In this document: one piece after another, positions 21,742 through 63,807 of the stretch
How the letters are laid out: every line of letters starts with the position of its first letter
How positions within the stretch are numbered: position 1 is the first letter of the stretch
NCBI RefSeq assembly: GCF_937871615.1
Contig: NZ_CALMPA010000021.1
Span: 62,001 to 126,000 of the forward strand
Length of the DNA stretch: 64,000 bases
Direction: 5' to 3'
DNA from: an uncultured Sphingomonas sp.
Lineage (GTDB): Bacteria; Pseudomonadota; Alphaproteobacteria; Sphingomonadales; Sphingomonadaceae
Position numbers and translations under genes: made by a program
The notes under the pieces: generated by a model
Database searches by the model: none
What the model was told of the DNA's origin: nothing
Seen by the model: the letters and a program-made list of their open reading frames with translations, nothing else

Positions 21742-23241
21742 CTATTGCGCGGCGCGAAAATCCACCACGACCCGCAGCCCCACGCCGCTTTCGGGTGTTG
21801 CGAGCGCCACCGTCGCGCCCATCCGCTCCGCCAGCGCGCGAACGATCGGCAGACCCAGCCCGCTGCCGGGCGGCGCCCCCTCCCGCGCGACACGGTAGAA
21901 ACGCTCCCACACCTTCTCGCGCTCGCTCTCGGGGATGCCGGGGCCGTCATCCTCCACCACAAGGCGCGCGCTGCCCGGCTGATGCTCGATCGCGACGCGC
22001 ACCGTGCCGCCGGGCCGGTTATAACGGATCGCATTGTCGATCAGATTGCCGGCAAGCTCCCGTGCGAGGCCGGGATCGCCCAGCGCCTGCACCGGGCCGC
22101 CGGCGGAAAACAGGATGTCGATGCCGTCATCCTCGCCCTGTGCGGCGCGATCCGCCGTCACCCGCCCGGCCAGCGCGGTGAGATCGAAGCGCTGGAGCGG
22201 CGCGATCGGCTGCTCATCGGTACGCGCCAGCGCGATCAACTGGAGCAGCAGCCGTTCGAGCGATTCCACCGCATAAGTGATGTCGCCGATCGCCGCGCTG
22301 GCAAGCGGCGCATGTGGCCCCGCGCGGCGCAGCACATCGAGATGCACGCGCGCCACCGCCAGCGGCGTGCGCATCTGATGCGAGGCGCTGGAGGTGAACT
22401 GGCGCAGCGACTCGTTCACCTTTTCCAGCCGCGTCATCAGCCCATTGAAGGATTCGACGAACGGCACGGTTTCGCGCGGCATATCCGGCTGGAGCTGCAG
22501 GCGGAATTGCGGCGCGGGATCGCTCTGTGCGTCGCGCACCTGCCGCGTCAGCGCCGTGAACGGACGCAGCCCCCAGCCGATCGCCAGCCACACCAGCAAC
22601 CCGGCGACGAACAGCACCAGCACGCCTTCCGCCACGATCTGCGCGAAATAGCCGTAATTATAGACGCGCTGATCGTCGACATAATCGGCGATCTGGATCG
22701 CGACGAGTTCGCCATTATCCCGCAAGCGGCGGATTTCGGTCGCGATCCGCGCCGGGCGGCCATGCAGCACGCCATCGCGTAGATAGGCCGCCTGCACCAC
22801 ATTGTCTGCGTCCCCGGCATCAATATAGCCGCGCACCATCGGCGTATCGCGCGCCTGCTTCTTGAATTCGGCGGGGGGATGTCGGTCGATCACGCCGTGA
22901 TCCGCCACGCCATAATCCGCCGGCGGGCGCAGCGCGGGATCGCCCATCAGCACATGGCGCCCGTGATAGACGCTGAAATTCACCACCGGGCGCGCGCGCC
23001 GCTTGAGCAGATGGATGATGAGCGGGGCGATCTTCTGCCGCACCTCGGGCGGCTGGTCATAAGCGAGGCTGAGCGTGCGGACCGACCCCACGAGCACGCG
23101 ATCGAGCGTGTCCAGATCGGTATCGCGCACGACCCATCCGGTGATCCCGGCAAGCAGCATGACGAGCAGCGCCAGCGGCAGCATCACCGCGACGATCAGC
23201 CGCCTTTGCAATGATTTATAGCGGCGGTGCATCGCGCTCAC
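21742..23241 (-). CDS. Two-component sensor histidine kinase, TctE-like
   Basis: A 499-residue membrane sensor kinase. TM1 is at about 15-35 (VAVMLPLALLVMLLAGITG), followed by a periplasmic 2CSK_N-type sensor region (about 36-200), TM2 (YFAQIVAEGVLVLFVAGLLVWLAIG, about 200-225), a HAMP-like linker, the H-box SASHQMRTPLAVARVH (about 290) and an HATPase domain with N, G1 (VVEDDGPGIPESE) and G2 (GSGLGLPIV) boxes. The start taken is GTG 23241, overlapping the regulator stop as GTGA; ATG 23232 is an alternative. TctE-type kinases sense tricarboxylates, but many sphingomonad copies sit next to TonB receptors and sense other nutrients. Confidence 0.92.
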   Translation of the reverse strand: MSAMHRRYKSLQRRLIVAVMLPLALLVMLLAGITGWVVRDTDLDTLDRVLVGSVRTLSLAYDQPPEVRQKIAPLIIHLLKRRARPVVNFSVYHGRHVLMGDPALRPPADYGVADHGVIDRHPPAEFKKQARDTPMVRGYIDAGDADNVVQAAYLRDGVLHGRPARIATEIRRLRDNGELVAIQIADYVDDQRVYNYGYFAQIVAEGVLVLFVAGLLVWLAIGWGLRPFTALTRQVRDAQSDPAPQFRLQLQPDMPRETVPFVESFNGLMTRLEKVNESLRQFTSSASHQMRTPLAVARVHLDVLRRAGPHAPLASAAIGDITYAVESLERLLLQLIALARTDEQPIAPLQRFDLTALAGRVTADRAAQGEDDGIDILFSAGGPVQALGDPGLARELAGNLIDNAIRYNRPGGTVRVAIEHQPGSARLVVEDDGPGIPESEREKVWERFYRVAREGAPPGSGLGLPIVRALAERMGATVALATPESGVGLRVVVDFRAAQ

Positions 23242-23903
23242 GCCGCCTCGATCATATAGCCCAGCCCGCGCACGGTGCGGATCACCGGCCCCTTCTCGCC
23301 GAGCTTGCGGCGTAGCCGGCCGACATAGACCTCAAGCGCGTTGATCCCGACATTGTCGTCGAAGCTGAACACCTCGGCGGAAAGCTGCTCCTTGCCGACC
23401 AGCCTGCCAGGGCGGGTCATCAGCGTTTCAAGCACCGCCAGTTCGCGTGGACGCAGTGGCACCGCCACCCCTTCCAGCAGCACGCTGCGGCTGGAACGAT
23501 CGAATTCCAGCGCGCCCAGGCGCAGCACGGGCGCCGGCGTGCCATGCGCCCGCCGCATCAGCGCGCGCACCCGCGAATGCAGCTCGCGCGGATCGAACGG
23601 CTTGACCATATAATCATCGGCGCCGCGATCGAGGCCGGTGATGCGATCGTCGACGCGATCGCGCGCGGTGAGGATCAGGATCGGCGTCGCCACCCCGATC
23701 TGGCGCAGCCGGTGCAGCAGCTCGATCCCGTCCATTCCGGGCAGGCCGAGATCAAGCACGATCGCGGCATAAGGCTCGCTCGGCGCGATCATCAGCGCAT
23801 CCTCGCCGGTGCCGAAAATATCGACCGACAGCCCCTCGGATTCCAGCGACGATGCGATGCCCCGCGCCAGCGCGACGTCATCCTCGACCAGCATGATGCG
23901 CAT
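23238..23903 (-). CDS. OmpR-family response regulator, TctD-like
   Basis: A 221-residue response regulator with a receiver domain (MRIMLVEDDVALARG, phosphorylated Asp in VLDLGLPGMDG near residue 51, KPFDPRELHSRV) and an OmpR/PhoB winged helix (about 125-220, ending LRRKLGEKGPVIRTVRGLGYMI). I chose ATG 23903 over a GTG 12 bases earlier because GGAGG lies five bases upstream and the protein then begins as the family does. It is the first gene of the pair with the kinase. It lies between the terminator of the TonB receptor gene and two operons carrying 11-base-period repeats, which makes it the best local candidate to bind them. Confidence 0.93.
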   Translation of the reverse strand: MRIMLVEDDVALARGIASSLESEGLSVDIFGTGEDALMIAPSEPYAAIVLDLGLPGMDGIELLHRLRQIGVATPILILTARDRVDDRITGLDRGADDYMVKPFDPRELHSRVRALMRRAHGTPAPVLRLGALEFDRSSRSVLLEGVAVPLRPRELAVLETLMTRPGRLVGKEQLSAEVFSFDDNVGINALEVYVGRLRRKLGEKGPVIRTVRGLGYMIEAA

Positions 23904-24121: not shown

Positions 24122-26854
24122 TCAGAAATGAACCTTCGCGCCGACGTTCAGATAGCGACCGATCGAATCGTAGAAGATCGAGCCATAGGTGGTGAGCGGC
24201 GCCTTGCGATCGAACACGTTGTTGACGCTGGCGAACAGCGTGAAGCCGCCAACCGTCGTCTGCCCGCCGAGATCGAGATAGGTGCGGCTGGTGATCTTGT
24301 TGTTCGCGATATCGAGCGTGTGGTCATAGACCCCGCCGCCGACATAGCGCACCCGCGCGTCGATCGAGAAATCGCTGTTCGTATAGGTGATCGAGCCGGT
24401 GCCGCGCCACTTCGGCGTGCCGAAGTTCACATTGTCACCCACGTCGCCCGCGCGCTGGATCACCGCGACGCCATTGTTGATCTCCACCTTGGGCACATAG
24501 GTCGCCAGCGCGCGGAAACGCAGCGAGCCGGGCATGTTGCTGATGCGGCTCATCGGCAACACATAGGACGCCTCGATATCAAGCCCGCGCGTCTTGTATT
24601 GCGCGAGGTTGATATAGGTGGAGTGGATCACCGTCGGCGCGCCAAGCGTCGCCGGCGGGATAGCCGGAGCACGCTCGATCTGGGCGCAGGCATTGGCATT
24701 GCCCAGGCTGCAGCTCGTGACGATGTCCTGCGCGCCGAGCGAGACGATCGCGTCCCGGATCTCGATATTGTAGTAATCGACCGAGAGGTTGAGCCCCGGC
24801 ACCGCGGTCGGCGTGAACACCGCGCCCACCGTCAGCGTGCTGCCGATTTCCGGGCGCAGCTTCGGGTTGCCGCCGGCGTAGCGCGTCACCGGATAGGTCT
24901 GGCCGTTCTCCGCGACCGACGAGAAGCTCGTGGCGACCGTGGTGTACATCTCCGTCAGGCTGGCCGAGCGGATATCGCGCGAGCGCGAGAAGCGCAGCAG
25001 CAGGTTGTTGAAGATGCGATCGGTGGCGCCGACCTTCCACGACCAGATGCCGCCCGAGGAGCTGTAGTGGCTGTAACGCGCCGCGCCGTTGATATCGAGC
25101 TTGCTGAACGGCTGGTCGAGCAGCGGGATCGCGACTTCGCCGAAGCCTTCCTGCACGTTGAACCCGCCGTTGAGCGGCGAGAAGTTGAAGCGGCTGAAGC
25201 CCTTCGCCGCCGACACCGGATCGAGCGAGTTGGTGGTGATGCTTTCCCAGCGCGCTTCGCCGCCGACCGCGACCGAAACCGGCCCCGCCCAGGTGTTGAA
25301 CGCATCGCCGCGCAGGCTGAAGCCGGTGGTGTCGAGCTTGGTGGTGTAGGCCACGCTCGCCTGATTGCCGAACACATAGCGCACCGCCGCCGGATCGGCG
25401 CGGCCCGCGCCGAGGATGTTGAGCGGGCGGCACGCGGTGGTCGGGTTGGTCAGCGCATCACGGCATACGATGTTGCCGCCCGCGTCATACACCGCATCGA
25501 GCGCCAGGGTGAGGTTCGCGCCGGTGATCTGGTTGTCATAGCTCTGCGCGTTGCGCAGTTCGCCGTGCGCGTAATAAGCGCTGTACTTCCAGTTGCCGCC
25601 GCCGATCGTGCCATCGACGCCGATCGCGCCCTCGATGTTGCGGCGGCTGAACCCGAAGGTGCGCATACCGTAATCCTCGAACACGCGACCGACCTTGATC
25701 GTGCCGGTCGGGGCGACCTGTCCACCAAGCGCCTGCTGCACGAACGGGTTCACGCCGCTCAGCGTGTAGGTGCCGGTTTCGGCGTAGAACGGATATTTCG
25801 CCCAGATGCGGCTGAACGTGGCATCGGCCCAGAAGGTCGCCTGGCCGACATCGTAGCTGAGGCGGGCATAGCTGTTGTAGCGCTGATACGGATTGGTCAG
25901 CGTGTGCTCGCTGTTCGACGAAACGCCCTCGCCGCCCACCATCGTGGTGCCGCCGAGGCCGACCTGGCCGAACTGGAACGGACGCACCGTGCCATTGGCG
26001 TTGAACGTCTTGCCGATCAGCGACGCCGGGCCGGAGGTAATCAGGCCGTTCGTGCCGAAATTGGCGTAGAACACGTCGGGCGACAGCACCAGATTGTGCC
26101 CGTTCGCGCCGCCGACCGGCGAGAACAGATCGGTGCTGCCGAGATTGGGGCGCGAGAAGCGATCGAAGATGCCTTCGTCACGCTGATATTCGCCGCCGAT
26201 CATGAAGTGGCCGCGCCCACCCGCGAAGCTGGTGCCGAACGAGCCGTTGAAGCTGTAGCGATGGCCGTCGCCGCGCGACGAAATGCCGTTCTGCGCGCCG
26301 ACCGTGAGGCCCTGAAGCTTGTTGTCGAGGATCAGGTTGACCACGCCGCCGACCGCGCCGGAGCCCCATGCCGCGCTCGCGCCGCCGGTGACGACCTCGA
26401 CGCGCTTCACCATGTTCTGCGGGATCGTGTTGAGATCGGCCGAGCCGGTGAAGCGGCGACCGTTGAGCAGCGTCAGCGTGCGCGTCACGCCGAGGCCGCG
26501 CAGATCCATCGCGGACGACGAGGAATTGGTGTTCGCCACCGTGCTCGTCGGGCTCTGCGTCGCGCGGAACTGCGGCAGATCGTTGAGCGCCTGCGCGATG
26601 CTCGGGCGCGCGCCCATCTGCAGCTCCGCCTCGCCGACAACGGTGGTCGGCGTCGGCGCGTCAAAGCCGGCCTTGTCGATGCGCGAACCCGTCACAACGA
26701 TATCGGTGGCGGCATCGGCGTCCGCATCGACTGCCACGGGTGCAGGCGCGGTCTGCGCGAGTGCTGCCGCGCCGAAAAGCGGCGAGATGAACAAGGCGGT
26801 TCCGGCGGTGCCCCGCAGGAGCGCGCGGCGCAGGCTTTCACGATGGATCGACAT
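24122..26854 (-). CDS. TonB-dependent outer-membrane receptor
   Basis: A 910-residue outer-membrane receptor. A signal peptide (ending about GAAALAQ, residue 33) precedes a TonB box-like DIVVTGSRI, the plug (PSIAQALNDLPQFR, LRGLGVTRTLTLLNGRR, VKRVEVVTGGASAAWGSGAVGGVVNL) and a long beta-barrel ending in VGAKVHF with the terminal Phe. The plug type with GRRF, NTIPQ and SAAWGSGA is the large sphingomonad/Caulobacter family that imports carbohydrates, peptides or aromatics rather than siderophores. The start is ATG 26854, seven bases after AAGGGA; ATG 26860 is possible. It follows the serine hydrolase gene on the same strand by about 90 bases. Confidence 0.92.
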   Translation of the reverse strand: MSIHRESLRRALLRGTAGTALFISPLFGAAALAQTAPAPVAVDADADAATDIVVTGSRIDKAGFDAPTPTTVVGEAELQMGARPSIAQALNDLPQFRATQSPTSTVANTNSSSSAMDLRGLGVTRTLTLLNGRRFTGSADLNTIPQNMVKRVEVVTGGASAAWGSGAVGGVVNLILDNKLQGLTVGAQNGISSRGDGHRYSFNGSFGTSFAGGRGHFMIGGEYQRDEGIFDRFSRPNLGSTDLFSPVGGANGHNLVLSPDVFYANFGTNGLITSGPASLIGKTFNANGTVRPFQFGQVGLGGTTMVGGEGVSSNSEHTLTNPYQRYNSYARLSYDVGQATFWADATFSRIWAKYPFYAETGTYTLSGVNPFVQQALGGQVAPTGTIKVGRVFEDYGMRTFGFSRRNIEGAIGVDGTIGGGNWKYSAYYAHGELRNAQSYDNQITGANLTLALDAVYDAGGNIVCRDALTNPTTACRPLNILGAGRADPAAVRYVFGNQASVAYTTKLDTTGFSLRGDAFNTWAGPVSVAVGGEARWESITTNSLDPVSAAKGFSRFNFSPLNGGFNVQEGFGEVAIPLLDQPFSKLDINGAARYSHYSSSGGIWSWKVGATDRIFNNLLLRFSRSRDIRSASLTEMYTTVATSFSSVAENGQTYPVTRYAGGNPKLRPEIGSTLTVGAVFTPTAVPGLNLSVDYYNIEIRDAIVSLGAQDIVTSCSLGNANACAQIERAPAIPPATLGAPTVIHSTYINLAQYKTRGLDIEASYVLPMSRISNMPGSLRFRALATYVPKVEINNGVAVIQRAGDVGDNVNFGTPKWRGTGSITYTNSDFSIDARVRYVGGGVYDHTLDIANNKITSRTYLDLGGQTTVGGFTLFASVNNVFDRKAPLTTYGSIFYDSIGRYLNVGAKVHF

Positions 26855-26882
26855 AAGCATATCCCTTTGGTCAGTTTGATCG

Positions 26883-26943: not shown

Positions 26944-28575
26944 TCAGCCGGTTCGCCGGAACAGAAGATTGAAAGCGCGTGTCTCGCCGACGCGCAGCGC
27001 CGCGACGCCGCCCGCTGCGTCGCGCTGGAACTTCAGGACGAAACTGGATTCGAGCGCCCCGGCATCGCCCGTGAACACGTCGCGATAGGCGGGTTCAAGC
27101 GGCTGGCCGCTCCAGCGCGGGCCGCTGAACACGAGGCGCGCGCCATCCACCTTGACGGTGATGCATGACGCGACCTCGTCCGAACAATAACGCCCGGCAT
27201 AAGGCGCGAGATCGGCCACCGGCGCGGCGACGTGATCGAACGGCTGGCGTTCGCCCTCGCGCGTTTCGCGCACCAGCGCCGACCCGGAGAACGCGAACAC
27301 GTCCTCGCGCAACTGCCACCGCCCCGGCCCGACCGGCACGAGCGCGCGCCCGTTGACCGTCATGCCGCCCTTGCCATCAGCCGCGAAACGATAGGGAAAG
27401 CCGGTCAGCCGATCCACCCACACGCCCGTCGGCAGCGCCCCGCGCGGCGCATAGGATTTGGCGCGAAACGCCGGCAGATAGAGATCCGCCACCTGCCGCC
27501 CGAGCGTCGGCGTATCCGCCTCGCCCGTATTGCACAGCAGCGACACCGCGAGCTTCTGCGCCGGATAGCGCGCCATCCATGCGCGATAGCCGCCGGTGGA
27601 GCCGGAATGGCTCACCTCGAACACGCCATTGTGATCGCCACCGACCAGCGCCAGCCCGTAAGCCATCCTGATCCCGCCAGCGAGCACGAACGGCCGCTCC
27701 ATTTCCGCGACGAAGCCCTTGCCGAAGAAGTCGCTGTCGAGCGCGGCCTGCCATTTGACGAGATCGCCAACCGTAGTCAGCAATCCGCCATTGCCATAGG
27801 CGTCCTCGATCACCTGCTCGTTGCGATAGCCAGCCGCCGACGCCTCATAGGCGCCGGTACGCCCGACGACGAGGCGGTGGTAATCGTCCCGCCAGCTCGT
27901 TTGCGTCATGCCGAGCGGCTTGAAGATGCGATCGCGCGTGAAGTCCGCCAGCGACTGCCCGCTCACCCGCGCGACGACGATCGCGGCGAGGTTATAATTG
28001 CTGTTGCTGTAAAGATAATGCGTGCCGGGCGCGAAGTTCAGCTCCTTTTGCTGCGCGACCAGCTTCAGCACGTCATCATTGTTGGCGGTGCGGCTGTTGC
28101 GCGGCCAGCCTTCGAGCGCGCCCAGCGAGCCCCAGTCGCGCAGCCCGCTGACGTGATGGAGCATCTGCCGCAATGTGATCGTCGCGCCGTAGTCGGGCAG
28201 TTCGGGAAGATATTTGCGCACATCGTCGTCGAGCGACAGCTTGCCGTCACGCGCCAGCATCAGCAGCGCGGCGGCGGTGAACTGTTTGGAATCCGATCCC
28301 GCCTCGTAGATCGAATCGACCGTCGCCGGGATCGCGTGCTCAAGATCGGCCATGCCATAGGCACGCATGGCGATCGCCTTCCCGTCGCGAGACACCGCCA
28401 CGGCACAGCCCGGCGCATCCTTGCCCGACCAGCGCGCGAAGATCGCGTCGACCTGGGCGAGCGCCGGATCGGCGGAAGCGGGCGCGGCAGCGGCGAGCGC
28501 AACCATGCCGACGGTGGCGGCGGTCAGGCGGCGCGCGATTGATGCCAATAATGTCCCTTGTGCAGCAGCGCGCAC
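26944..28575 (-). CDS. Secreted serine hydrolase, class C beta-lactamase / D-aminopeptidase superfamily
   Basis: A 543-residue penicillin-binding-like hydrolase with a signal peptide (cleaved about after APASA). The nucleophile motif SDSK (YEAGSDSKQFTAAALL, about residue 95) and the Tyr motif YSNSNYNLAAIV (YSN, about 190) are present, and HSGSTGGYRAW supplies the third HSG box. A C-terminal lipocalin-like domain of about 150 residues follows, as in D-amino-acid esterases and EstB/Pab87 peptidases. It is therefore more likely a peptidase or esterase than a resistance enzyme. GTG 28575 has GGAG six bases upstream; a TTG at 28548 after AAGGGA would also fit. A Pho-box-like repeat lies 82 bases upstream. 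Confidence 0.87.
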   Translation of the reverse strand: MRAAAQGTLLASIARRLTAATVGMVALAAAAPASADPALAQVDAIFARWSGKDAPGCAVAVSRDGKAIAMRAYGMADLEHAIPATVDSIYEAGSDSKQFTAAALLMLARDGKLSLDDDVRKYLPELPDYGATITLRQMLHHVSGLRDWGSLGALEGWPRNSRTANNDDVLKLVAQQKELNFAPGTHYLYSNSNYNLAAIVVARVSGQSLADFTRDRIFKPLGMTQTSWRDDYHRLVVGRTGAYEASAAGYRNEQVIEDAYGNGGLLTTVGDLVKWQAALDSDFFGKGFVAEMERPFVLAGGIRMAYGLALVGGDHNGVFEVSHSGSTGGYRAWMARYPAQKLAVSLLCNTGEADTPTLGRQVADLYLPAFRAKSYAPRGALPTGVWVDRLTGFPYRFAADGKGGMTVNGRALVPVGPGRWQLREDVFAFSGSALVRETREGERQPFDHVAAPVADLAPYAGRYCSDEVASCITVKVDGARLVFSGPRWSGQPLEPAYRDVFTGDAGALESSFVLKFQRDAAGGVAALRVGETRAFNLLFRRTG

Positions 28576-28675: not shown

Positions 28676-28716
28676 CAATCGAAAAAACGCGCCGCGCGCG
28701 ATCGGGCTGACGGCGA

Positions 28717-29334
28717 TCAGGCGGGTAGCGCCACCGTGATGATCGAACCGCCGGCGCGCCGCGAGACGCAGCGGGATGCGCCATCGCCGGACGATGCCCG
28801 AATCACCTCGCCCGACAGATCGGTTTCGATCGCGCGCGGATCGGCGGCGTCGGCGCGGGCGAAACGCTTGGCATGGGCTTCCTTCGCGGTCCAGCGCAGC
28901 AGGCGATCGCCGCCATCATGCAGTTCGCGCGGGGTGAACAAATCGTCGGGCAAAGCGGGCTGGTCGAGCGGCTCGATATCCACCCCGATCGGCATTCGCG
29001 CGAGCGCGATCGCGCAATGCGCCCCCTGCCCCGCGACGCTCAGCCACCAGCCAGCGGGCGCGACCACCGCGAGCGCGCCGAAGCGCGAGCGCGCCAGGAC
29101 GATCGTATCGGGATGCACCCCCGCCAGCGCGGCGAGCAAGGCGCGTGTCGCCCGCCGCCGCTCCGCGCGCCACGCCGCGCGCGGGCGCCTGGCGAGATCG
29201 GCGAGATCGCCCGCCGTCAGCGCCGCCCGCGTCAGGAGCGCGCGAGCATCATCGAGCGGGCCATGCCAGACGCAAACGCCATCCGGGGCGAGCGGCGGGA
29301 TCGCCGCATCCCCCGTCACCCATTCGATGCGCAT
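28717..29334 (-). CDS. Sfp-type 4'-phosphopantetheinyl transferase
   Basis: A 205-residue transferase that moves the phosphopantetheine arm from CoA to a carrier-protein serine. The two diagnostic motifs are present: GVDIEPLD (residues 117-124, metal-binding Asp/Glu) and LLRWTAKEAHAKRF (145-158, the WxxKEA motif). The start ATG 29334 overlaps the synthetase stop (TGATG), so the two are translationally coupled; longer in-frame reading into the synthetase gene is not supported. Its obvious partner is the carrier domain of that synthetase (Ser 590). It is distinct from the housekeeping AcpS at 63403. Confidence 0.93.
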   Translation of the reverse strand: MRIEWVTGDAAIPPLAPDGVCVWHGPLDDARALLTRAALTAGDLADLARRPRAAWRAERRRATRALLAALAGVHPDTIVLARSRFGALAVVAPAGWWLSVAGQGAHCAIALARMPIGVDIEPLDQPALPDDLFTPRELHDGGDRLLRWTAKEAHAKRFARADAADPRAIETDLSGEVIRASSGDGASRCVSRRAGGSIITVALPA

Positions 29335-32300
29335 CACCCGCCGCGCGAGAGGCGGGCGGGCGAACCTTCCCATGATGTGCCGTCCGGCAGCGATTCGCCC
29401 TTCATCACCACGGACAGGTCGCCAAGCTGCGCGTCCTCGCCGATCTCCGCATCGTAGAGCACGATGGCATAGGAGCCGATCGTCGCGCGATCCTTCACGG
29501 TGACGCCGCTCACCTTCATCACGCGATCCTCGAACAGATGCGTCTGCAAGCCGGCGAAATCGTTGAGCGCGACATCGTCGCCGATCGTCACCAGATCGTG
29601 TTCGGTGAGATCGGTGGTGTCGAGATAGCAGCGCTTGCCGATCCGGCAGCCGAGCAGCCGGAAATAGGCGGGCAGCCATGGCGTGCCGCGGAGTGGCTCC
29701 AGCAGATTGGGCACCGCGAGATTCTCATAGGTCGCGGTCACCAGTTCGGTGCGCCAGACGAAGGTGCTCCACAACGGCTGGGTGGTGGGCCTGTAGCGCC
29801 CCATTACCAGCCATTTCAGCGCCACCACCGCCAGCCCGCAGCCTAGCGCGAAGCCGATATAGAGGAAGGGAAAGGCGACCAGCACGAGATAGCCGCCGTT
29901 GCGCATGTCATCCAGTTCGCCCACCGCCGACAGCAGCAGCGTGAAGAAGACGATGAACGCGGTGAGCGACAGGGTGACGCGGATCGCCTCGATCGCCAGC
30001 CGCTTGGCAACCAGTTTCGGCCCCGGATTGAAGCGCGCGCCCTCGTCGAACAGCCCCACCTTCTGCCTGACGGGAAGCGAGATCGGCGGGGAGCCGAACC
30101 AGGTGCCGTCCGCGCGCGCCGCCTCGCCGTTTTCGGGGGGCTTGGAAAGCACGCCGATCAGCACGCCGTCGCCGATCGTCGCGCCGGTCGGCAGCAGCGC
30201 GGAATTGCCGATGAAGCTGCGCCGCCCGATCCTTGTATGGGCGAGCCGGATCGCGCCCGGCTCCACCCGCGCCGCGCCGAACAGCACGGCATCGGCGATG
30301 AAGCTCTCCGGCCCGATATCGACCAGATCGGGAACGATCGCCGCCGCGGTCGAAATCTCCGCGCGCCGCCCCACCTTCACGCCCAGCGCGCGATACCAGG
30401 GGATGACGTAAAGCGTCGCATAGATCGGGTGAAGCAGCCTGAGCGCGAGATCGTTGACCTGCTGGACGAACCAGAAGCGAACGTAGAACCAGCTATCCAT
30501 GCGATAGCGACCGGGGCGGACACGGCCGAGGAACAGCCGCTTGGCGATCACCGTCAACACGCACATCAGGATGACATAAGTGGTGGCGAGCAGCGGCGCG
30601 ATCAGCAGATAGGTGTAGCTCTCGCTGCGCCAGTCGATCTCGATCATCGCGATCAGCCCCGGCGCGATCGGCACGATGGCGACCAGCGGCAGGATCAGCG
30701 CGGCAAGCGTGAGCGCAAGGCCGACCGCGAAGCGCCGCGCGAAGCCGCCGCGCGGGCGCGGCTCCCACGCAAGGCCGTGTTCGACGCACGCGGCGGGCGA
30801 ACCGCTCCAGCGTTCGCGCGGGCCGATGCGCGCGCCGACCGGCAGGGCCGAGAGATCCTCCAGCGCCGCGCCCTCGCCGATCGCGCAATCGCGCCCGACC
30901 ACCGCCATCGAGCCGACGAAGGCTTTGCGCCCGATATCGGCGCGCCCGAGCCGAAGCAGCCCGCGCTCGACCGAACTGGTCGCGAGCATCGCATAATCGC
31001 TGACGATCGCGCCGTCCCCGATCGTCACCAGATCGGCGGCGTCGATATTGCCGCGCCCGATAAAGGCATCGCGGCCCACCTTCGCGCCGAGCAGCCGGTA
31101 ATAGGTGCGGATCAGCGGCGTGCCCGCGAGATAGGGCGTCGCGATCACCTCCGAAAAGCGACGAACGAACCACCAACGGAAATAATAGCTGCCCCACAAC
31201 GGGTAATCGCCCGCGCGAAACCGCCCGATCACCAGCCATTTGACGAGGATCGAGGCGAGCATCGCCAGCGGCGGGATGAAGACGAAGCTCAGCCCGCTAA
31301 TCAGCAGCGCCGGCACGCGATCGACCTGATCGGTGAGCCGCGTATAGGCGACATAAGGGAAGAACCATTGCAGCCCGGCGATGGTGAAGATCGGGATCAG
31401 CGCGATCGTCTGCGCGAGGCCACACAACCAGCGTTTCCACGCGGCGATACGATGGAACGGCAATGCGACGGCCACATGCTCCGGCGCGGCGCTCTCCAGC
31501 CGGGCGGCGAGCGCACGGATATTGGGCGCGGCATAGAGATCCTGGATCGAAACGCCCGCCAGCCCCGGCGCCTTGCGGATCGCGGAAACCAGCCGCGCGG
31601 CCTTGAGCGAATGGCCGCCCAGATCCTCGAACAGATCGTCGAGCACCGATACCTTCAGCGGCGCGAACGCCACCGCCCAGATTTCGTGGAGCGTCTCCTC
31701 CAGCGGCGTCGCCGGGGCGACCGTCTCGCGATCGGCGGCGGGGGCGAGCGCCGGGCGCTGCAAGGCCTTGCGATCAACCTTGCCCGATGCGGGCAGCGTC
31801 GGCAGCACATCCAGCAACTGATAGGCCGCCGGGCGCATATAATTGGGCAGGCGATCGCGCACCCGCGCGCGCACCGCTTCCAGATCGACCTTCGCGCCAC
31901 CGCGCGGCACGATGAAACCGGCGAGGAACTCCGCCCCGTCATCATCGCGAAACAGATGGACCACCGCCTGCGCCACCGCCGGATCGTCCGCGATCACCGC
32001 CTCGATCTCGCCCAGTTCGACGCGGAAACCGCGAATCTTCACCTGGGTGTCGATCCGCCCGACGAAATCAATATCGCCCACCGCGTCGAGCCGCACGAGA
32101 TCGCCCGAACGATAGATCAGCACGGTCTCGCCATCCGGCCCCTCGAACGGGGTCCGGACGAATTTCTCGGCGGTCAGATCGGGACGGTTGACATAGCCCG
32201 CGCCGACGCCGGGGCCGCCGATCACCAATTCCCCTTCCGCGCCCGCGGGCACGGGCCACAGACTTTCGTCGACGATCCACGCGGTATAGCCGGGCAAGGG

Positions 32301-33377
32301 CCGCCCGATCGTGATGCGCCGGCCGGGCTGCACCTCCGTCCAGGTTGCCGTCACCGTGGTTTCGGTCGGGCCATAGGTGTTGAGGATGCGCAGCCCCGGC
32401 CGCGCCCAGCGATCGACCAGATCGGGCGGGCAGGCCTCCCCGCCAAGATTGAGCAGCCGCAGCGCCGGCATGTCGGTTTCCACCAGCGTGAGCAGCGACG
32501 GGACGACGTGCCACACCGTCACCGCTTCCGCCGCGAGCACGATCGCCATGTCCGGTCCGGCACCGGCCAGCGCCTCGGACGCCACGAGCAGTGTGGCGCC
32601 GACGAAGAACGCGCTCCACATCGTCTCGACCGACATGTCGAAAGCGAGGCTGAAGCCGCCGAACACCCGATCCGTCGCATCGAGCGCGAGGATCGCGCTT
32701 TCGGAGCGGACGAGGTGGCACGCGTTGCGATGGGAGATCATCACGCCCTTGGGCCGCCCGGTCGTGCCCGAAGTGTAGATGATATAGGCCAGATCGTCGG
32801 GCGTCGCGCCGGTTTCGGCGCGGTCGAGCGGATCGGCGGGGCGCGCGGCGAGATCGCCCAGCGCCGCGTCCACCGCCAGCGCGCGGATCGGCATCGCCTC
32901 CGCCCGCTGGCTGGCGGTGACGACGAGCACCGCCGCGCTATCCTCCGCGATATAGTCGATCCGCTCCTGCGGGTAGCTCCAGTCGACCGGCACATAGCAG
33001 GCGCCGCACCACAGCGTGCCCAGGATCGCCATATATTGATCGAGCCCGCGCGGAAGGCAGATCACCACGCGATCGCCGCGTTTCACGCCAAGTTCGCGCA
33101 GCCGATGGGCGAAGCGCAGCGCGCGATCGCGCAACTCGGCATAGGTCAGTTCGGCCCGGCGGCTGCTTTCGGCGTCTATGTCGATCTGCCGCACCGCCTG
33201 ATGCGTGGCATATGCGTGGCAGGCGGCCTCGAAAATCTCATGGAGAAGCTCGTCACGCGCATAAGGCTCGTCATCCCTGAGCGCGGGGGACGGCGCGATC
33301 GGGGCGAAGATGGTGGGCGCGATATCCGTTGCGGTTGCCATCGGCTCAGCCTGCGCGATTACGGCGCGATTTACCAC
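29334..33377 (-). CDS. Pls/PosA-family single-module peptide synthetase (adenylation - carrier - membrane/beta-helix)
   Basis: A 1347-residue membrane-bound NRPS-like enzyme. Residues about 40-540 form an adenylation domain (A3 YTSGTTGRPKG at 201-211, A5 NTYGPTE at 333-339, A10 SGKVDRKAL at 531-539). A carrier domain follows with LGGHSL and modifiable Ser 590. Then come three units of paired membrane helices plus a left-handed beta-helix (hexapeptide) domain: helices about 651-717, 880-947 and 1127-1192; beta-helices about 760-862, 998-1100 and 1240-1345. There is no HHxxxDG condensation domain and no thioesterase. This is the layout of Streptomyces poly-epsilon-lysine synthetase, which adds residues iteratively. 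The start GTG 33377 is 16 bases after the FAH gene; ATG 33341 is an alternative. Product unknown. Confidence 0.9.
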   Translation of the reverse strand: MVNRAVIAQAEPMATATDIAPTIFAPIAPSPALRDDEPYARDELLHEIFEAACHAYATHQAVRQIDIDAESSRRAELTYAELRDRALRFAHRLRELGVKRGDRVVICLPRGLDQYMAILGTLWCGACYVPVDWSYPQERIDYIAEDSAAVLVVTASQRAEAMPIRALAVDAALGDLAARPADPLDRAETGATPDDLAYIIYTSGTTGRPKGVMISHRNACHLVRSESAILALDATDRVFGGFSLAFDMSVETMWSAFFVGATLLVASEALAGAGPDMAIVLAAEAVTVWHVVPSLLTLVETDMPALRLLNLGGEACPPDLVDRWARPGLRILNTYGPTETTVTATWTEVQPGRRITIGRPLPGYTAWIVDESLWPVPAGAEGELVIGGPGVGAGYVNRPDLTAEKFVRTPFEGPDGETVLIYRSGDLVRLDAVGDIDFVGRIDTQVKIRGFRVELGEIEAVIADDPAVAQAVVHLFRDDDGAEFLAGFIVPRGGAKVDLEAVRARVRDRLPNYMRPAAYQLLDVLPTLPASGKVDRKALQRPALAPAADRETVAPATPLEETLHEIWAVAFAPLKVSVLDDLFEDLGGHSLKAARLVSAIRKAPGLAGVSIQDLYAAPNIRALAARLESAAPEHVAVALPFHRIAAWKRWLCGLAQTIALIPIFTIAGLQWFFPYVAYTRLTDQVDRVPALLISGLSFVFIPPLAMLASILVKWLVIGRFRAGDYPLWGSYYFRWWFVRRFSEVIATPYLAGTPLIRTYYRLLGAKVGRDAFIGRGNIDAADLVTIGDGAIVSDYAMLATSSVERGLLRLGRADIGRKAFVGSMAVVGRDCAIGEGAALEDLSALPVGARIGPRERWSGSPAACVEHGLAWEPRPRGGFARRFAVGLALTLAALILPLVAIVPIAPGLIAMIEIDWRSESYTYLLIAPLLATTYVILMCVLTVIAKRLFLGRVRPGRYRMDSWFYVRFWFVQQVNDLALRLLHPIYATLYVIPWYRALGVKVGRRAEISTAAAIVPDLVDIGPESFIADAVLFGAARVEPGAIRLAHTRIGRRSFIGNSALLPTGATIGDGVLIGVLSKPPENGEAARADGTWFGSPPISLPVRQKVGLFDEGARFNPGPKLVAKRLAIEAIRVTLSLTAFIVFFTLLLSAVGELDDMRNGGYLVLVAFPFLYIGFALGCGLAVVALKWLVMGRYRPTTQPLWSTFVWRTELVTATYENLAVPNLLEPLRGTPWLPAYFRLLGCRIGKRCYLDTTDLTEHDLVTIGDDVALNDFAGLQTHLFEDRVMKVSGVTVKDRATIGSYAIVLYDAEIGEDAQLGDLSVVMKGESLPDGTSWEGSPARLSRGG

Positions 33378-35008: not shown

Positions 35009-35926
35009 ATGAGCCGCATTCTGGAGGGGAAGGTCGTCGCGATCACCGGCGCGGGGCGCGGCATCGGGCGCGAGATCGCCCTGCTCTGCGCGCGCGAGGG
35101 CGCGGCGGTGGTGGTGAACGACCCCGGCGTCGCGCAGGGCGGCGATGGCGGCGACGCGGGGCCGGCGGAAACCACCGTTGCCGATATCGTCGCGGCGGAC
35201 GGCCAGGCGATCGCCAATCTCGCCGATGTTGCCGATCCCAAGGCGGCGGCGTCGATCGTCGAGGATGCGGTGCGGCGCTTCGGCCGGATCGACGCGGTGG
35301 TGAACAACGCCGGCATCCTGCGCGACACGATCTGGCACAAGATGAGCCATGCGGACTGGACGAGCGTTATCGACGTGAACCTCACCGGCGCGTTCAACGT
35401 ATCGAAGGCCGCCACCCCCTATTTCCGTGAGCAGCAATCGGGCAGCTTCATCCACTTCACCTCCACCAGCGGGCTGATCGGCAATCTGGGGCAGGCGAAT
35501 TATTCCGCCGCCAAGCTGGGGCTGGTGGCGATGTCGCAGTCGATCGCGCTCGACATGGCGCGGGTGGGCGTGCGATCCAATTGCATCGCCCCTTTCGCCT
35601 GGAGCCGCATGACCGCCTCCATCCCCGCCGAGACGCCGGAGCAGAAGCAGCGCGTCGAACGGATGCAATCCATGAGCGCGGACAAGATCGCGCCGCTCGT
35701 CGCCTATCTGGCGTCGGATCGCGCGAAGGATGTGACCAACCAGATATTCTCGGTGCGCCGAAACGAGATCATGCTGTTCTCGAAACCGCGCCCGATCCGC
35801 TCGATGGTGAAGGCGGACGGCTGGACGGCACAAAGCATCGCGGACGAACTGATCCCCGCCTTCCGCCCCAGCTTCGCGCGCGCCGACGAGGTTTCGGCGC
35901 ATGTCTTCCCCTATGATCCGGTCTGA
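35009..35926 (+). CDS. SDR-family 3-hydroxyacyl-CoA dehydrogenase
   Basis: A 305-residue short-chain dehydrogenase. The NAD-binding motif ITGAGRGIGREIA (residues 12-24), NNAGILRD (about 97-104), the catalytic Ser region STSGLIGNLGQ and YSAAKLG (about 165-171) are all present. The insertion around VVVNDPGVAQGGDGG and the long C-terminus resemble the dehydrogenase part of peroxisomal multifunctional enzyme 2 (17-beta-HSD type 4), which oxidises (3R)-hydroxyacyl-CoA. AAAGGAG precedes ATG 35009. It is first in the five-gene plus-strand operon and supplies the third beta-oxidation step. Confidence 0.9.
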   Translation: MSRILEGKVVAITGAGRGIGREIALLCAREGAAVVVNDPGVAQGGDGGDAGPAETTVADIVAADGQAIANLADVADPKAAASIVEDAVRRFGRIDAVVNNAGILRDTIWHKMSHADWTSVIDVNLTGAFNVSKAATPYFREQQSGSFIHFTSTSGLIGNLGQANYSAAKLGLVAMSQSIALDMARVGVRSNCIAPFAWSRMTASIPAETPEQKQRVERMQSMSADKIAPLVAYLASDRAKDVTNQIFSVRRNEIMLFSKPRPIRSMVKADGWTAQSIADELIPAFRPSFARADEVSAHVFPYDPV

Positions 35927-35935
35927 GGAGCCCGC

Positions 35936-37111
35936 ATGAGCACCACCAATCCCGGCATGGATGCGGACGTGTTCGAACAGTTCATCGAACAACTCGCCCG
36001 TTTCGTTCGCGAGCGGCTGATCCCGGCGGAACGCGCGATCGTCGAGAGTGACCAGATTCCCGCCGACATCCTCGCCGAGATGCGCGACATGGGATTGTTC
36101 GGCCTGACGATGCCGGAGGAGTTCGGCGGCGCCGGGATGAACGTCAGCCAATATGTGCGCACGATCCACACGCTGAGCTATGCCATGCCCGCGTTCCGCT
36201 CGGTCATCTCGATCAACATCGGCATGTTCTGCTCCGCGCTGAAGAATGGCGGAACGGCGGCACAGAAAGCGGCATGGCTGCCGCGCGTCGCGAGCGGCGA
36301 GATCGCCTGTTTCGGGCTGACCGAGCCGGGATCGGGATCGGATTCCGCCGGGCTTCAGACCACGGCGATCAAAATCGACAGCGGCTGGGTGCTCAATGGC
36401 ACCAAACGCTATATCACCAATGCCCCGCACGCGCGGGTCGGCCTCATCATGGCGCGCACCTCGAAGGAGAATCTGCCGAAGAACGCGCATGTCTCCGCCT
36501 TCATCGTGCCGATGGACGCGCCCGGCGTGTCAGTAGGCAAATCCGACAGGAAGATGGGCCAGTCCGGCAGCCATATCGCCGATATCGTCATGGAGGATGT
36601 TCACCTAGCCGATGATGCGCTGCTCGGCGGCGAACTGGGCAAGGGCTTCGTCTATGCGATGATGAGCCTCGATAACGGGCGCATGTCGGTCGGCGCGGCG
36701 GCGGCGGCCTATGCGCGGCGCGCGCTCGACAGCGCGATCCGCTACGCCACCGAGCGCAAGGCGTTCGGGGAGCCGATCGCCAATTTCCAGCTCATCCAGC
36801 AGATGCTCGCCGACAGCGAGATCGAAATCTACGCCGCCGAATGCATGATGGCGGACGTGACGCGCCGCGCCGACGCGGGCGAGAACGTGTTGCGCAAGGC
36901 CGCCGCATTCAAGGTGTTCGCATCCGAGATGTGCGGGCGCGTGGTCGATCGCTGTGTGCAGGTCTATGGCGGGGCGGGCTATCTCGCCGAATATGATGCG
37001 GAACGCTTCTTCCGCGATGCGCGCATCTATCGCATCTACGAGGGCACGACGCAGATCCTCCAGCTCCAGATCGCCAAGCATATGCTGCGCGAATTCAACG
37101 CGGGTGTTTAG
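35936..37111 (+). CDS. Acyl-CoA dehydrogenase
   Basis: A 391-residue FAD-dependent acyl-CoA dehydrogenase for the first beta-oxidation step. Signatures are GLFGLTMPEEFGGAGM, CFGLTEPGSGSDSAG (flavin and substrate binding, about 124-138), GTKRYITNAPHA and the C-terminal IYRIYEGTTQILQLQIA, whose Glu (about residue 371) is the catalytic base position of the short/medium-chain type. It starts nine bases after the SDR gene with GAGGAG. The electron acceptor would be ETF, which is not encoded here. Chain specificity cannot be told. Confidence 0.92.
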   Translation: MSTTNPGMDADVFEQFIEQLARFVRERLIPAERAIVESDQIPADILAEMRDMGLFGLTMPEEFGGAGMNVSQYVRTIHTLSYAMPAFRSVISINIGMFCSALKNGGTAAQKAAWLPRVASGEIACFGLTEPGSGSDSAGLQTTAIKIDSGWVLNGTKRYITNAPHARVGLIMARTSKENLPKNAHVSAFIVPMDAPGVSVGKSDRKMGQSGSHIADIVMEDVHLADDALLGGELGKGFVYAMMSLDNGRMSVGAAAAAYARRALDSAIRYATERKAFGEPIANFQLIQQMLADSEIEIYAAECMMADVTRRADAGENVLRKAAAFKVFASEMCGRVVDRCVQVYGGAGYLAEYDAERFFRDARIYRIYEGTTQILQLQIAKHMLREFNAGV

Positions 37112-37124
37112 GGCAGCGCCTAAA

Positions 37125-37223
37125 GCCCCTCCCCTTCAAGGGAGGGGTTGGGGTGGGGCAGTCAAGAGCGTTGGTCTCGATGAAACCTCCCCCACCCCCC
37201 ACCCCTTCCCTGAAGGAGGGGGG
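37125..37223. repeat. GC-rich mirror-image intergenic repeat
   Basis: Two arms in inverted orientation: the left (37125-37158) begins GCCCCTCCCCTTCAAGGGA and continues as G/T-rich GGGGTTGGGGTGGGG; the right (37186-37223) is its imperfect reverse complement. Each arm also has an internal small hairpin around TTCAAG or TTCAGGG. It fills most of the 137-base gap between the acyl-CoA dehydrogenase and the CoA-transferase genes. A shorter copy is at 18851-18875. This kind of element is widespread between genes in sphingomonads and may attenuate transcription inside the operon. Confidence 0.8.
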
Positions 37224-37248
37224 CTTTGCCTTGGCGTAGGAGGCGCGC

Positions 37249-38448
37249 ATGTATGACATCCTCACCGGCCTGTCGGTGATCGAGGCGTCGTCGTTCGTCG
37301 CCTCCCCCACCGCGGGGCTTTATTGCGCGCAGATGGGGGCGGAGGTGATCCGCGTCGACCAGATCGGCGGCGGCCCCGATTTCCGGCGCTGGCCGGTGAC
37401 GACGGCGAATGACTCGCTCTATTGGGAGAACCTGAACCGCGCGAAGAAATCGGTCGCGCTCGATCTCGCGCGACCGGAAGGGCGGGAATTGTTGCAGGCG
37501 CTGGTGCGCGCGACGGGCCAGGTCATCACCAATTTCCCGGCGAAGGGCTTCATGGCGCATGACGTGCTGGCTGAAGGCCGCGCCGATCTCGTCACCGTGC
37601 GCGTGATGGGTTGGGCGGATGGCGCGCCGGCGCTCGATTATACGGTCAACAATGCGGTCGGCTATCCGATGCTGACGGGCGCGGGGCCGGAGCCGGTGAA
37701 CCATGTGCTGCCCGCATGGGATCTGCTGAGCGGGGCCTATGCCGCCTTCGCGCTGCTCGCGGCGCTGCGTCGCCGGACGGAGACCGGCGACGGTGGCGAG
37801 GTGCGCATCCCGCTTTCCGATGTCGCGATCGGCACGGTCGCGAATCTCGGCAGCATGGCCGAGGTGCTGTACACCGGCGCCGATCGGCCACGGCTCGGCA
37901 ATACCGTCTACGGGTTATTCGGGCGCGATTTCGTCACCGCCGATGGCGTGCGGACGATGATCGTCGTCGTCACGCCGCGCCAATGGGCCAATTTGCTCGC
38001 AGCACTCGATCTAGGTGCGGCGGTCGCGGCGGCGGAAGCGCGGCTGGGCGTGTCTTTCACGCGGGACGACGGGCTGCGTTTCAATCATCGCGACACGCTG
38101 TTTCCATTGTTCGAACAGGCATTCGCGCGGCGCACCCACGCCGATCTCGCCGCCGCGCTCGATGCAGGCGGCGTGGTCCATTCAGCCTATCGTGCCATGT
38201 CCGATGCAGTCCGCGATCCCGCGCTGGTGCGCGACAATCCGATCTTCGGGCCAGCGGAGAACCCGAGCGGCTTCGCCTATCCCGCCGCCGGTGCCTTCGC
38301 CACCGTGCCGCAACTCGAACGCCGCCCGCCGGCATCGGCGCCGCGCAACGGCGAACATTCCGAGCAGGTGCTTGCCGAGCGCCTGTCGCTATCCTCGGGC
38401 GAGATCGCCCGTCTCATCGACTCAAACATCGTAGGAATTGCCCAATGA
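37249..38448 (+). CDS. Family III CoA-transferase (CaiB/BaiF)
   Basis: A 399-residue CoA-transferase that moves CoA between acids. The N-terminal LSVIEASSFVASPTAGLYCAQMGAEVIRV-type fold, DLARPEGRELLQAL, and LPAWDLLSGAYAAFALLAAL with the Asp at the position of the catalytic aspartate of formyl-CoA transferase are present. TAGGAGG lies five bases before ATG 37249. It stands after the GC-rich repeat but its stop overlaps the thiolase start by four bases, so it belongs to the same operon. It probably activates the growth substrate with CoA from a downstream product such as succinyl- or acetyl-CoA. Confidence 0.9.
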   Translation: MYDILTGLSVIEASSFVASPTAGLYCAQMGAEVIRVDQIGGGPDFRRWPVTTANDSLYWENLNRAKKSVALDLARPEGRELLQALVRATGQVITNFPAKGFMAHDVLAEGRADLVTVRVMGWADGAPALDYTVNNAVGYPMLTGAGPEPVNHVLPAWDLLSGAYAAFALLAALRRRTETGDGGEVRIPLSDVAIGTVANLGSMAEVLYTGADRPRLGNTVYGLFGRDFVTADGVRTMIVVVTPRQWANLLAALDLGAAVAAAEARLGVSFTRDDGLRFNHRDTLFPLFEQAFARRTHADLAAALDAGGVVHSAYRAMSDAVRDPALVRDNPIFGPAENPSGFAYPAAGAFATVPQLERRPPASAPRNGEHSEQVLAERLSLSSGEIARLIDSNIVGIAQ

Positions 38449-39674
38449 CCCTGCGCCGCGCCGCCATCGTCGCCCCGATCCGCACCCCCGTCGGCAAGTT
38501 CGGCGGCGCGCTTGCCGGCATGAACGCCGGGCAGCTCGGCGCGGTGATCCTGAAGGCGCTGATCGAGCGGACGAAGATTGATCCCGCCCGCGTCGACGAC
38601 GTGGTGTTCAGCCAGGGTTACGGCAACGCTGAGGCGCCCGCGATCGGCCATTGGTCCTGGCTTGCCGCCGGGCTGCCAATCGAGGTGCCGGGCTATCAGC
38701 TCGATCGGCGCTGCGGCTCGGGGCTTCAGGCGGTCGTCAACGCGGCGATGATGATCCAGACGGGCATGTCCGACGTGGTGGTCGCGGGTGGCGTGGAGAG
38801 CATGTCGAACGTCGAATATTACACCATCGAAGGGCGGCGCGGCACGCGCGCGGGCGGGCTGATGCTTCACGATCGGCTGACGCGCGGGCGGCTGATGTCG
38901 CAGCCGATCGAGCGTTTCGGCGTGATCTCGGGAATGATCGAGACGGCGGAAAACCTCGCGCGCGACTACGGCATCTCCCGCGAGGCGGCGGATGCCTATG
39001 CCGTCCGCTCGCACCAGCACGCGGCGGCGGCGTGGGAAAAGGGGCTGTTCGACGACGAACTCGTCCCCGTCGCCATCCCGCAGCGCAAGGGCGATCCGGT
39101 GATCTTCGCGCACGACGAGGGCTATCGCGCCGATGCCAGCATGGCGACGCTTGGCGCGCTCAAGCCGCTGGAGGCGAAGGCGATTCCCGGCGCGATCGTC
39201 ACTGCGGGCAACGCCAGCCAGCAGAATGACGCGGCGGCGGCCTGCCTCGTCGTGGCGGAGGACAAGCTTGAGGAACTCGGGCTGGAGCCGATCGCCTGGT
39301 TCCACAGCGCCGCTTCCGCCGGCTGCGATCCCGCGCGGATGGGGATCGGGCCAGTGCCGGCGGTGGAGCGGCTGTTCGCGCGCAACGGCCTTGGCTGGGG
39401 CGATGTGGATCTGGTCGAGCTGAACGAGGCGTTCGCGCCACAGGTGCTCGCGGTGCTGAAAGGTTGGGGCTGGAGCGCAGACGACAGCCGCAACGACATG
39501 CTCAACGTCAACGGATCGGGCATCTCGCTCGGCCACCCGATCGGCGCGACCGGCGGGCGCATCCTTGCCAATCTCACCCGCGAACTGCAACGACGTGGCG
39601 GGCGCTATGGCCTCGAAACCATGTGCATCGGCGGCGGGCAGGGGATCGCGGCGATCTTCGAGCGCGCCGCATAG
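38445..39674 (+). CDS. Thiolase (acetyl-CoA C-acyltransferase)
   Basis: A 409-residue thiolase for the cleavage step. The acyl-accepting Cys lies in LDRRCGSGLQAV (about residue 90), the His in LNEAFAPQ and GHPIGATGGR (about 367-376), and the second Cys in METMCIGGGQGIA (about 399). Start ATG 38445 overlaps the CoA-transferase stop as ATGA; a frame reaching back to 37611 runs inside that gene and was rejected. Length is slightly above the usual 390-395. The substrate is unknown; the type also serves beta-ketoadipyl-CoA. Confidence 0.92.
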   Translation: MTLRRAAIVAPIRTPVGKFGGALAGMNAGQLGAVILKALIERTKIDPARVDDVVFSQGYGNAEAPAIGHWSWLAAGLPIEVPGYQLDRRCGSGLQAVVNAAMMIQTGMSDVVVAGGVESMSNVEYYTIEGRRGTRAGGLMLHDRLTRGRLMSQPIERFGVISGMIETAENLARDYGISREAADAYAVRSHQHAAAAWEKGLFDDELVPVAIPQRKGDPVIFAHDEGYRADASMATLGALKPLEAKAIPGAIVTAGNASQQNDAAAACLVVAEDKLEELGLEPIAWFHSAASAGCDPARMGIGPVPAVERLFARNGLGWGDVDLVELNEAFAPQVLAVLKGWGWSADDSRNDMLNVNGSGISLGHPIGATGGRILANLTRELQRRGGRYGLETMCIGGGQGIAAIFERAA

Positions 39675-39690
39675 GGATTTGGGGGACGCG

Positions 39691-63406: not shown

Positions 63407-63807
63407 TCGTCGGCCTCGGCTCCGATCTGTGCAATATCGAGCGCATCCAGGCATCGCTCGATCGCTTCGGCGAGCGATTCGAGCAACGCGTGTTCACCGA
63501 GATCGAGCGCGCCAAGGCCGCGAAGCGCCCGTTCACCCGCGCGGGCACCTACGCCAAGCGATTCGCCGCGAAGGAGGCTTTCTCCAAGGCGGTGGGAACC
63601 GGATTCAGGCGCGGCGTGTTCATGCGCGACATCGGGGTCGTCAATGCAGCCTCGGGCGCGCCGACGCTGGCCCTTGAAGGCGGGGCGAAGGCAAGGCTTG
63701 ACGCAATGATTCCCGAAGGCCACGTCGCGCGCATCCATCTGACGCTTACCGACGATCACCCCTGGGCACAGGCGTTCGTGATTATCGAAGCAATCGTGCA
63801 AGAGTAA
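63403..63807 (+). CDS. acpS: Holo-[acyl-carrier-protein] synthase
   Basis: A 134-residue AcpS-type phosphopantetheinyl transferase that activates the fatty-acid carrier protein. [14 protein letters not shown] (metal-binding Asp) and [17 protein letters not shown] are the two family motifs. It is distinct from the Sfp-type enzyme at 28717. It overlaps pdxJ by four bases and is four bases from lepB. Confidence 0.96.

Follow-up and report, generated by a model that had tools for sequence, protein, structure and literature searches.

What does a sphingomonad make with a large single-module peptide synthetase whose activator gene begins inside its own stop codon? This question is raised by two overlapping minus-strand genes in a 64,000-nucleotide stretch from an uncultured Sphingomonas sp. 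(NCBI RefSeq assembly GCF_937871615.1, contig NZ_CALMPA010000021.1, positions 62,001 to 126,000), hereafter the window. The first gene (29334..33377) encodes a Pls/PosA-family nonribosomal peptide synthetase (NRPS) and the second (28717..29334) encodes a 205-residue Sfp-type 4'-phosphopantetheinyl transferase (PPTase). Judged from its sequence, the gene pair is a real, intact, and previously uncharacterised member of the known Pls/PosA family, and it probably forms an operon for making a cationic isopeptide homopolymer of the delta-poly-L-ornithine type.

The synthetase has 1347 residues when counted from a GTG start, which is uncertain because the gene finder chose an in-frame ATG at 33341 that would give a protein of 1335 residues. 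Residues 655-1341 match the NCBIfam model TIGR02353, named "Pls/PosA family non-ribosomal peptide synthetase", with 862.8 bits over profile positions 2-695 of 695, against a curated cut-off of 423.1 bits. This is higher than both positive controls, an Acinetobacter baumannii posA-type gene (725.2 bits) and a Streptomyces gene annotated as pls (675.2 bits). The Pfam matches over cut-off are AMP-binding (residues 58-395), AMP-binding_C (457-527), PP-binding (563-627), and Hexapep, and one further beta-helix match was weak and under its cut-off. The adenylation domain (approximately residues 78-540, 31758..33146, minus strand) is also matched by TIGR01733 (residues 78-473, 438.6 bits). The carrier, or thiolation, domain (31497..31691, minus strand; PP-binding 32.2 bits, cut-off 20.8) contains the pantetheine-site serine, Ser590, within the motif GGHS. 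No condensation or thioesterase domain was detected in the synthetase by Pfam at E <= 0.01. The protein is therefore present as the initial annotation had described it, with 1347 residues, an adenylation domain, a carrier with Ser590, and neither of the two missing domains. In a sample of 151 same-genus genomes, which was drawn evenly from a larger group and includes the window's own, 20 encode a synthetase over the TIGR02353 cut-off. The window frame is open, without stops, and its substitutions relative to same-genus orthologues are mostly silent. Substitutions at codon positions 1/2/3 relative to two such orthologues number 51/32/274 and 100/73/387; because third-position changes dominate and over-cut-off matches occur in 20/151 same-genus genomes, we regard the frame as more than chance.

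The prediction of the substrate comes from the adenylation pocket. Pocket positions were read after alignment to chains 8g97/8g95 of PosA, the delta-poly-L-ornithine synthetase of A. baumannii, and one script was applied to all proteins. Nine of the ten pocket residues (D247, M248, E251, H290, N310, G312, T334, V342, and T343) are encoded within 32349..32639 on the minus strand and the tenth is K533, which results in the complete code DMEHNGTVTK. The same script read DMEHNGTVSK from full-length PosA, exactly as printed in the PosA paper (PMC10522769). The two codes are identical at nine of ten positions, the lone change being Ser to Thr (PosA S313) with the hydroxyl kept, and 69 of 140 residues around the pocket are identical. 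Activity was undetectable in the D217A and E221A mutants of PosA, T304A was reduced 33-fold and S313A 183-fold, and Met218 limits or sets chain length; the full-length enzyme formed ornithine polymers and did not form lysine polymers (PMC10522769). Because the window pocket is nearly identical to that of PosA, a delta-poly-L-ornithine-type polymer, and not polylysine, is the best prediction for the product. L-ornithine is likewise the best prediction for the substrate of the window adenylation domain, as opposed to a demonstration. As far as sequence can tell, there is no sign of an inactive adenylation domain, against which the initial annotation had cautioned, the motifs being kept and the diamino-acid pocket complete. 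The same annotation had likened the layout to that of Streptomyces Pls. The likeness holds for the layout and fails for the pocket, which reads DAESIGTVVK in the Streptomyces and Kitasatospora pls-type rows, and in this respect the closest characterised relative is instead PosA. Polylysine was rejected as the first-choice product, as the length-setting position of the window pocket is occupied by Met and not by Ala.

It could still be that the same machine uses another monomer, giving a chain of mixed composition or a homopolymer of a different diamino acid, such as lysine or 2,4-diaminobutyrate (DAB). In isolation, the adenylation domain of PosA has modest activity with lysine and low activity with DAB, and the PosA paper lists further pockets of unassigned substrate (PMC10522769). 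In addition, alphaproteobacterial relatives of the window protein have the codes DIECNGTVTK (locus L121) and DVEANGTGSK (L112 and L117), which indicates that the branch varies its pocket. According to the PosA paper, however, Ala at the length-setting position marks lysine enzymes and Phe marks DAP/DAB enzymes (PMC10522769), and the window protein has Met, as does PosA. Moreover, DMEHNGTVT followed by the lysine was read in 20/20 same-genus synthetases over the TIGR02353 cut-off. We consequently consider a different monomer unlikely and retain L-ornithine as the predicted substrate.

Polymerization would fall to the membrane-embedded region at residues 655-1341 (29355..31415, minus strand), in which three repeats are predicted from the TIGR02353 span, hydropathy, an AlphaFold2 model, and beta-helix fold matches. 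The hydropathy scan placed hydrophobic stretches at residues 650-677, 687-719, 878-916, and 920-953, one long stretch at 1126-1194, and, within the adenylation domain, a further one at 253-299. The AlphaFold2 model of the C-terminal 693 residues (predicted local distance difference test score 88.8, predicted template modelling score 0.89) consists of three copies of a unit with long helices, a strand, helices, and a short-strand beta-helix. The three repeats of membrane helices plus beta-helix that had been proposed at the outset are thus present in the predicted structure, and the hydropathy scan fits their hydrophobic helices. The family layout, six transmembrane helices in three pairs that alternate with three soluble repeats, fits the prediction, with the last pair appearing as one long stretch in the hydropathy scan. 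The listed fold matches to the C-terminal model were single beta-helix proteins, most of which cover the first repeat only and barely test the other parts. No solved structure of a whole terminal domain was among the best 60 of 92 profile-search matches, which included beta-helix proteins.

The third repeat contains the motif QTHLFEDR (residues 1278-1285, 29523..29546, minus strand), a candidate catalytic centre around His1280. Residues Q1278, H1280, D1284, and R1285 are identical in 36/36 non-redundant members and in 104/104 rows of an alignment from which 7 of 111 rows were dropped as too short. Based on this conservation, the invariant polar cluster is likely to be the polymerase centre. 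The initial annotation had also set simple acyltransferases as the alternative to a Pls-type terminal domain. When checked, the C-terminal part scored as a Pls/PosA terminal domain at the 862.8 bits given above vs ∼28-45 bits for the other short same-genus TIGR02353 matches listed, presumably hexapeptide acyltransferases, and a simple acyltransferase identity was rejected. Two same-genus matches stand apart from these short ones at 363-368 bits and, being below the cut-off, were not counted as family members. They are divergent Pls/PosA-like synthetases (L053:8542-12405 and L054:9296-13309, genomes G131 and G082) with the code DSECYGGVTK, which is the code of a Bdellovibrionales protein that activates L-arginine modestly. 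At L054, an argininosuccinate synthase gene lies ∼5 kb upstream of the divergent synthetase and a MATE transporter gene adjoins.

The PPTase gene starts within the synthetase stop codon, as the initial annotation had stated for a 205-residue Sfp-type transferase. The overlap reads GTGATG and offers both GTG and ATG starts, and in 20/20 same-genus loci a start codon overlaps the synthetase frame by 4 bases. The motifs D-x-E and W-x-x-K-E-A, which we take to be those of Sfp-type PPTases, are kept in 11/11 aligned homologues, and the family profile matches Bacillus subtilis Sfp with E ∼5e-6. The protein is less conserved than the synthetase, with an amino-acid change in 72 of 205 codons relative to L035, one of the two nearest relatives of the window locus.

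A PPTase profile was built from 11 PPTases, all from among the 20 synthetase genomes. Strong matches (E 8.9e-69 or better) were found in exactly these 20 genomes, and the 9 that were outside the profile input matched with E 3.7e-82 or better. The other 131 genomes gave 16 weaker matches (best 1.6e-16) and, in the remaining 115, none at E <= 0.001. The window genome has two ACPS-family matches, namely this PPTase and a gene at window 63415-63693 that presumably encodes AcpS. It also has four PP-binding carriers, three of which are outside the synthetase in short frames of 86-119 aa, and only that of the synthetase is in a long NRPS-type frame. From the co-occurrence, the overlap, and this inventory, it is therefore well supported that the PPTase is a dedicated one. 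The proposed "dedicated, translationally coupled activator" is, as far as sequence data can speak to it, borne out by the overlapping frames and the genus sample (20/20 vs 0/131 strong matches).

The pairing was also surveyed in 80 named public loci, the top-ranking ones among at least 509, which were picked by similarity to the window branch, overlap the 20, and do not give an independent frequency. A PPTase of this profile is near the synthetase in 44 of them, including Novosphingobium, Agrobacterium, Caulobacter, and an Acetobacteraceae bin, and is not nearby in 36, including Aureimonas and nearly all of the non-proteobacterial ones. Where the code is DMEHNGTVTK, 37 of 43 loci have it, and three of the six loci without a profile match (L118-L120) have a PPTase-like gene by eye.

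In the pathway that we propose, the PPTase would load phosphopantetheine onto Ser590, and the adenylation domain would activate L-ornithine and load it onto the carrier. The membrane-embedded C-terminal region would then join the units singly via the side-chain amine to give a delta-poly-L-ornithine-type oligomer. Joining would most likely occur at the third beta-helix repeat, where His1280 of QTHLFEDR would act as a general base, the two preceding repeats serving mainly as scaffold. The linkage would presumably be through the delta amine, the chain may be short, the product may be exported, and an antifungal or competitive role is conceivable. With its activator included, the gene pair would be a ready cassette for producing polymers of the poly-ornithine type. 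The proposed pathway also makes a testable prediction, ornithine and not lysine, for the branch of the family that is present in Sphingomonas, Novosphingobium, Agrobacterium, and Caulobacter, and it names an invariant residue cluster for the polymerisation step in a domain for which the matches above included no solved structure.

Several observations weigh against this proposal. The Pfam ACPS match of the PPTase is marginal (27.3 bits, cut-off 25) and no NCBIfam model matched the protein, so its identity is carried by the conserved motifs and the Sfp profile match. The pocket is not proof of a single substrate because the isolated PosA adenylation domain accepts D-ornithine nearly as readily as L-ornithine and has modest activity with L-lysine (PMC10522769). 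No ornithine supply or export gene conserved beside the synthetase was found in the loci compared. Lastly, the C-terminal identity between the window protein and PosA is only ∼37%, and in free C-terminal and full-length trees PosA, which is a long branch, lies farther from the window clade than do cyanobacterial, Opitutaceae, and polylysine-type rows. The slower trees used 37 of the 104 rows, hand-picked for spread. In the 37-row adenylation tree, from which the pocket columns were removed, the window clade groups with PosA and two DLED-type rows (Shimodaira-Hasegawa-like approximate likelihood ratio 90, not starred), and the program warned of long branches meeting elsewhere. With the window clade held with PosA, the C-terminal data did not reject the grouping (approximately unbiased test, p-AU 0.681), and the log-likelihood was 4.35 higher than that of the free tree. 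Grouping with PosA is therefore compatible with the C-terminal data, not proven by them. A domain swap, with the adenylation domain from the PosA side and the C-terminal part from elsewhere, was suggested by the free trees and dropped since the C-terminal data do not reject the PosA grouping and the constrained tree is even better. With respect to the window branch itself, the proteins of L080 and L082 (Agrobacterium) and L081 (Aureimonas) have 73-76% C-terminal identity to the window protein vs ∼70% for many Sphingomonas, which hints at a transfer between orders.

The lack of a conserved neighbouring exporter also bears on a second alternative, in which one or a few activated ornithines are transferred to an acceptor, for instance a lipid, lipopolysaccharide, or wall component, and no free polymer is made. 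This possibility was already raised in the initial annotation, and DltA/DltB-type systems are known to transfer D-alanine to an acceptor. The C-terminal part, with its predicted membrane embedding and acyltransferase-type beta-helix fold, and the lack of a conserved exporter adjoining the synthetase in the loci compared would suit such a reaction. However, PosA, whose architecture is the same over the whole length, formed free homopolymer in vitro, and Pls and others do so as well according to the PosA paper (PMC10522769). Given also that the window protein scores above PosA on TIGR02353, we find acceptor transfer quite improbable and continue with a free delta-poly-L-ornithine-type polymer as the expected product.

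A feature that was not foreseen is a third gene (172-188 aa) that directly follows the PPTase gene in 17/20 same-genus loci. In 16 of the 17 a start codon overlaps the PPTase frame by 4 bases, and in one it comes directly after the PPTase; the one protein tested by Pfam is a GNAT acetyltransferase. The third gene is absent from three loci, that of the window and those of its two nearest relatives (L034 and L035). A search with one GNAT protein found no homologue in the genomes of these three and one match each in three other genomes. The GNAT could be a gene for product tailoring or self-protection. In Streptomyces albulus, the peptidase gene pldII is coupled to pls, and its product degrades the polymer and is described as self-protective (PMC9223678). 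A tentative and rather doubtful extension is an alphaproteobacterial sub-type, based on the synthetase-PPTase operon, to which most Sphingomonas would add a coupled GNAT that caps or masks the amines of the polycation for tailoring or self-protection and for which Streptomyces would have a degrading peptidase instead; the window clade, without the GNAT, would then make an unmasked polymer. Other neighbours were noted in single loci, including an S8 autotransporter subtilase near the synthetase (L048:4507-7887) and a divergent M1 peptidase (L045:13445-16117), peptidases being common genes. In the Caulobacterales loci L109, L111, L112, L113, and L117, at ∼8150-9280, a small downstream gene (140-168 aa) encodes a CxxCH protein that is cytochrome c-like by eye.

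Directly after the PPTase stop in the window, a consensus scan located a terminator-like hairpin with a T-run (28688..28700, minus strand), which suggests that the transcript ends there; the region has 5 terminator-like sites compared to 3.2 (sd 1.7) in shuffles. Behind the hairpin, 168 bases beyond the PPTase (141 if a GTG at 28575 is used), is a serine hydrolase of the beta-lactamase/D-aminopeptidase fold (26944-28548). It was considered as a degrading partner because pldII adjoins pls in S. albulus. This candidate was rejected since its D-aminopeptidase-like match is distant (157.6 bits vs a cut-off of 443), it lies behind the hairpin, and it is common to L034 and not to L035. A TonB-dependent receptor (24122-26860) follows the hydrolase, and further along are a PGA_cap (CapA-like) protein (20220-21608) and an adjoining two-component pair (21742-23903). 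Upstream of the synthetase, on the same strand, are genes for an FAA hydrolase and an IclR-type regulator, followed by divergent dehydrogenase, CoA-transferase, and thiolase genes. This set, which on the plus strand at 35009-40542 comprises an SDR, an acyl-CoA dehydrogenase, a family III CoA-transferase, a thiolase, and a FAS1-type dehydratase, with the IclR and FAA hydrolase genes divergent to it, looks like a catabolic operon. Of the 20 same-genus loci, only those of the three-member clade formed by the window and its two nearest relatives have these genes flanking the synthetase. The FAA hydrolase and IclR genes were set aside as pathway partners and assigned to the adjacent CoA-type catabolic set. 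That the synthetase is silent or decaying, with an intact frame that is not expressed or productive under normal conditions, is very improbable: the patchy distribution (20/151), the lack in the window clade of the GNAT that 17 other loci keep, and a lone sigma-70-like site in the region, on the other strand and at about shuffle level, would fit it, but the frame is open with mostly silent substitutions and the pocket, the invariant C-terminal residues, and the PPTase overlap are all kept.

According to the PosA paper, homologues occur across Proteobacteria and in further groups (PMC10522769), and the window pair can be compared with several systems. Streptomyces Pls, the epsilon-poly-L-lysine synthetase (PDB 7WEW; pls of Streptomyces sp. 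NBC_01454), has the same adenylation-thiolation-terminal-domain layout with TIGR02353 over cut-off, whereas its pocket is of the lysine type, as described above. The gene that overlaps after pls is the peptidase gene pldII in S. albulus (PMC9223678) and encodes an M1 metallopeptidase in NBC_01454; no such coupled degrading peptidase directly follows the window synthetase, which has the PPTase there instead. Among sphingomonads, the figure legend of a Sphingomonas genome paper names the cluster class non-alpha poly-amino acids, NAPAA (PMC9716278). No report on the product of a sphingomonad Pls/PosA member was found among the matches listed from the open literature searched, subscription papers being outside this scope, in agreement with the earlier view that such a product is not described. 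One of these searches listed, besides the PosA paper, work on unrelated polymers. The arrangement itself is less novel than had been thought because the public annotation of Sphingomonas parapaucimobilis YK209 already names a Pls/PosA NRPS, a PPTase superfamily protein, and a GNAT. On the YK209 plasmid that carries these genes (NZ_CP155753.1), the synthetase has 69.7% C-terminal identity to the window protein, the same code, and a PPTase gene overlapping directly downstream. It differs in having the GNAT as a third overlapping gene and in its MFS, SDR, glycosidase, and S8-peptidase neighbours, which do not flank the window gene. A resembling pair is also found in Rhizobium sp. CCGE532, where a "PPTase superfamily protein" is encoded 8 bases downstream of a Pls/PosA synthetase with ∼34% C-terminal identity to the window protein and the pocket DLEDIGTVVK, which the PosA paper lists without an assigned substrate (PMC10522769). 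PosA itself (PDB 8G95-8G98) has the domain order of the window protein and a terminal domain that is likewise over the TIGR02353 cut-off; it is described as a single-gene operon (PMC10522769), whereas the window synthetase is overlapped by the gene of its PPTase.

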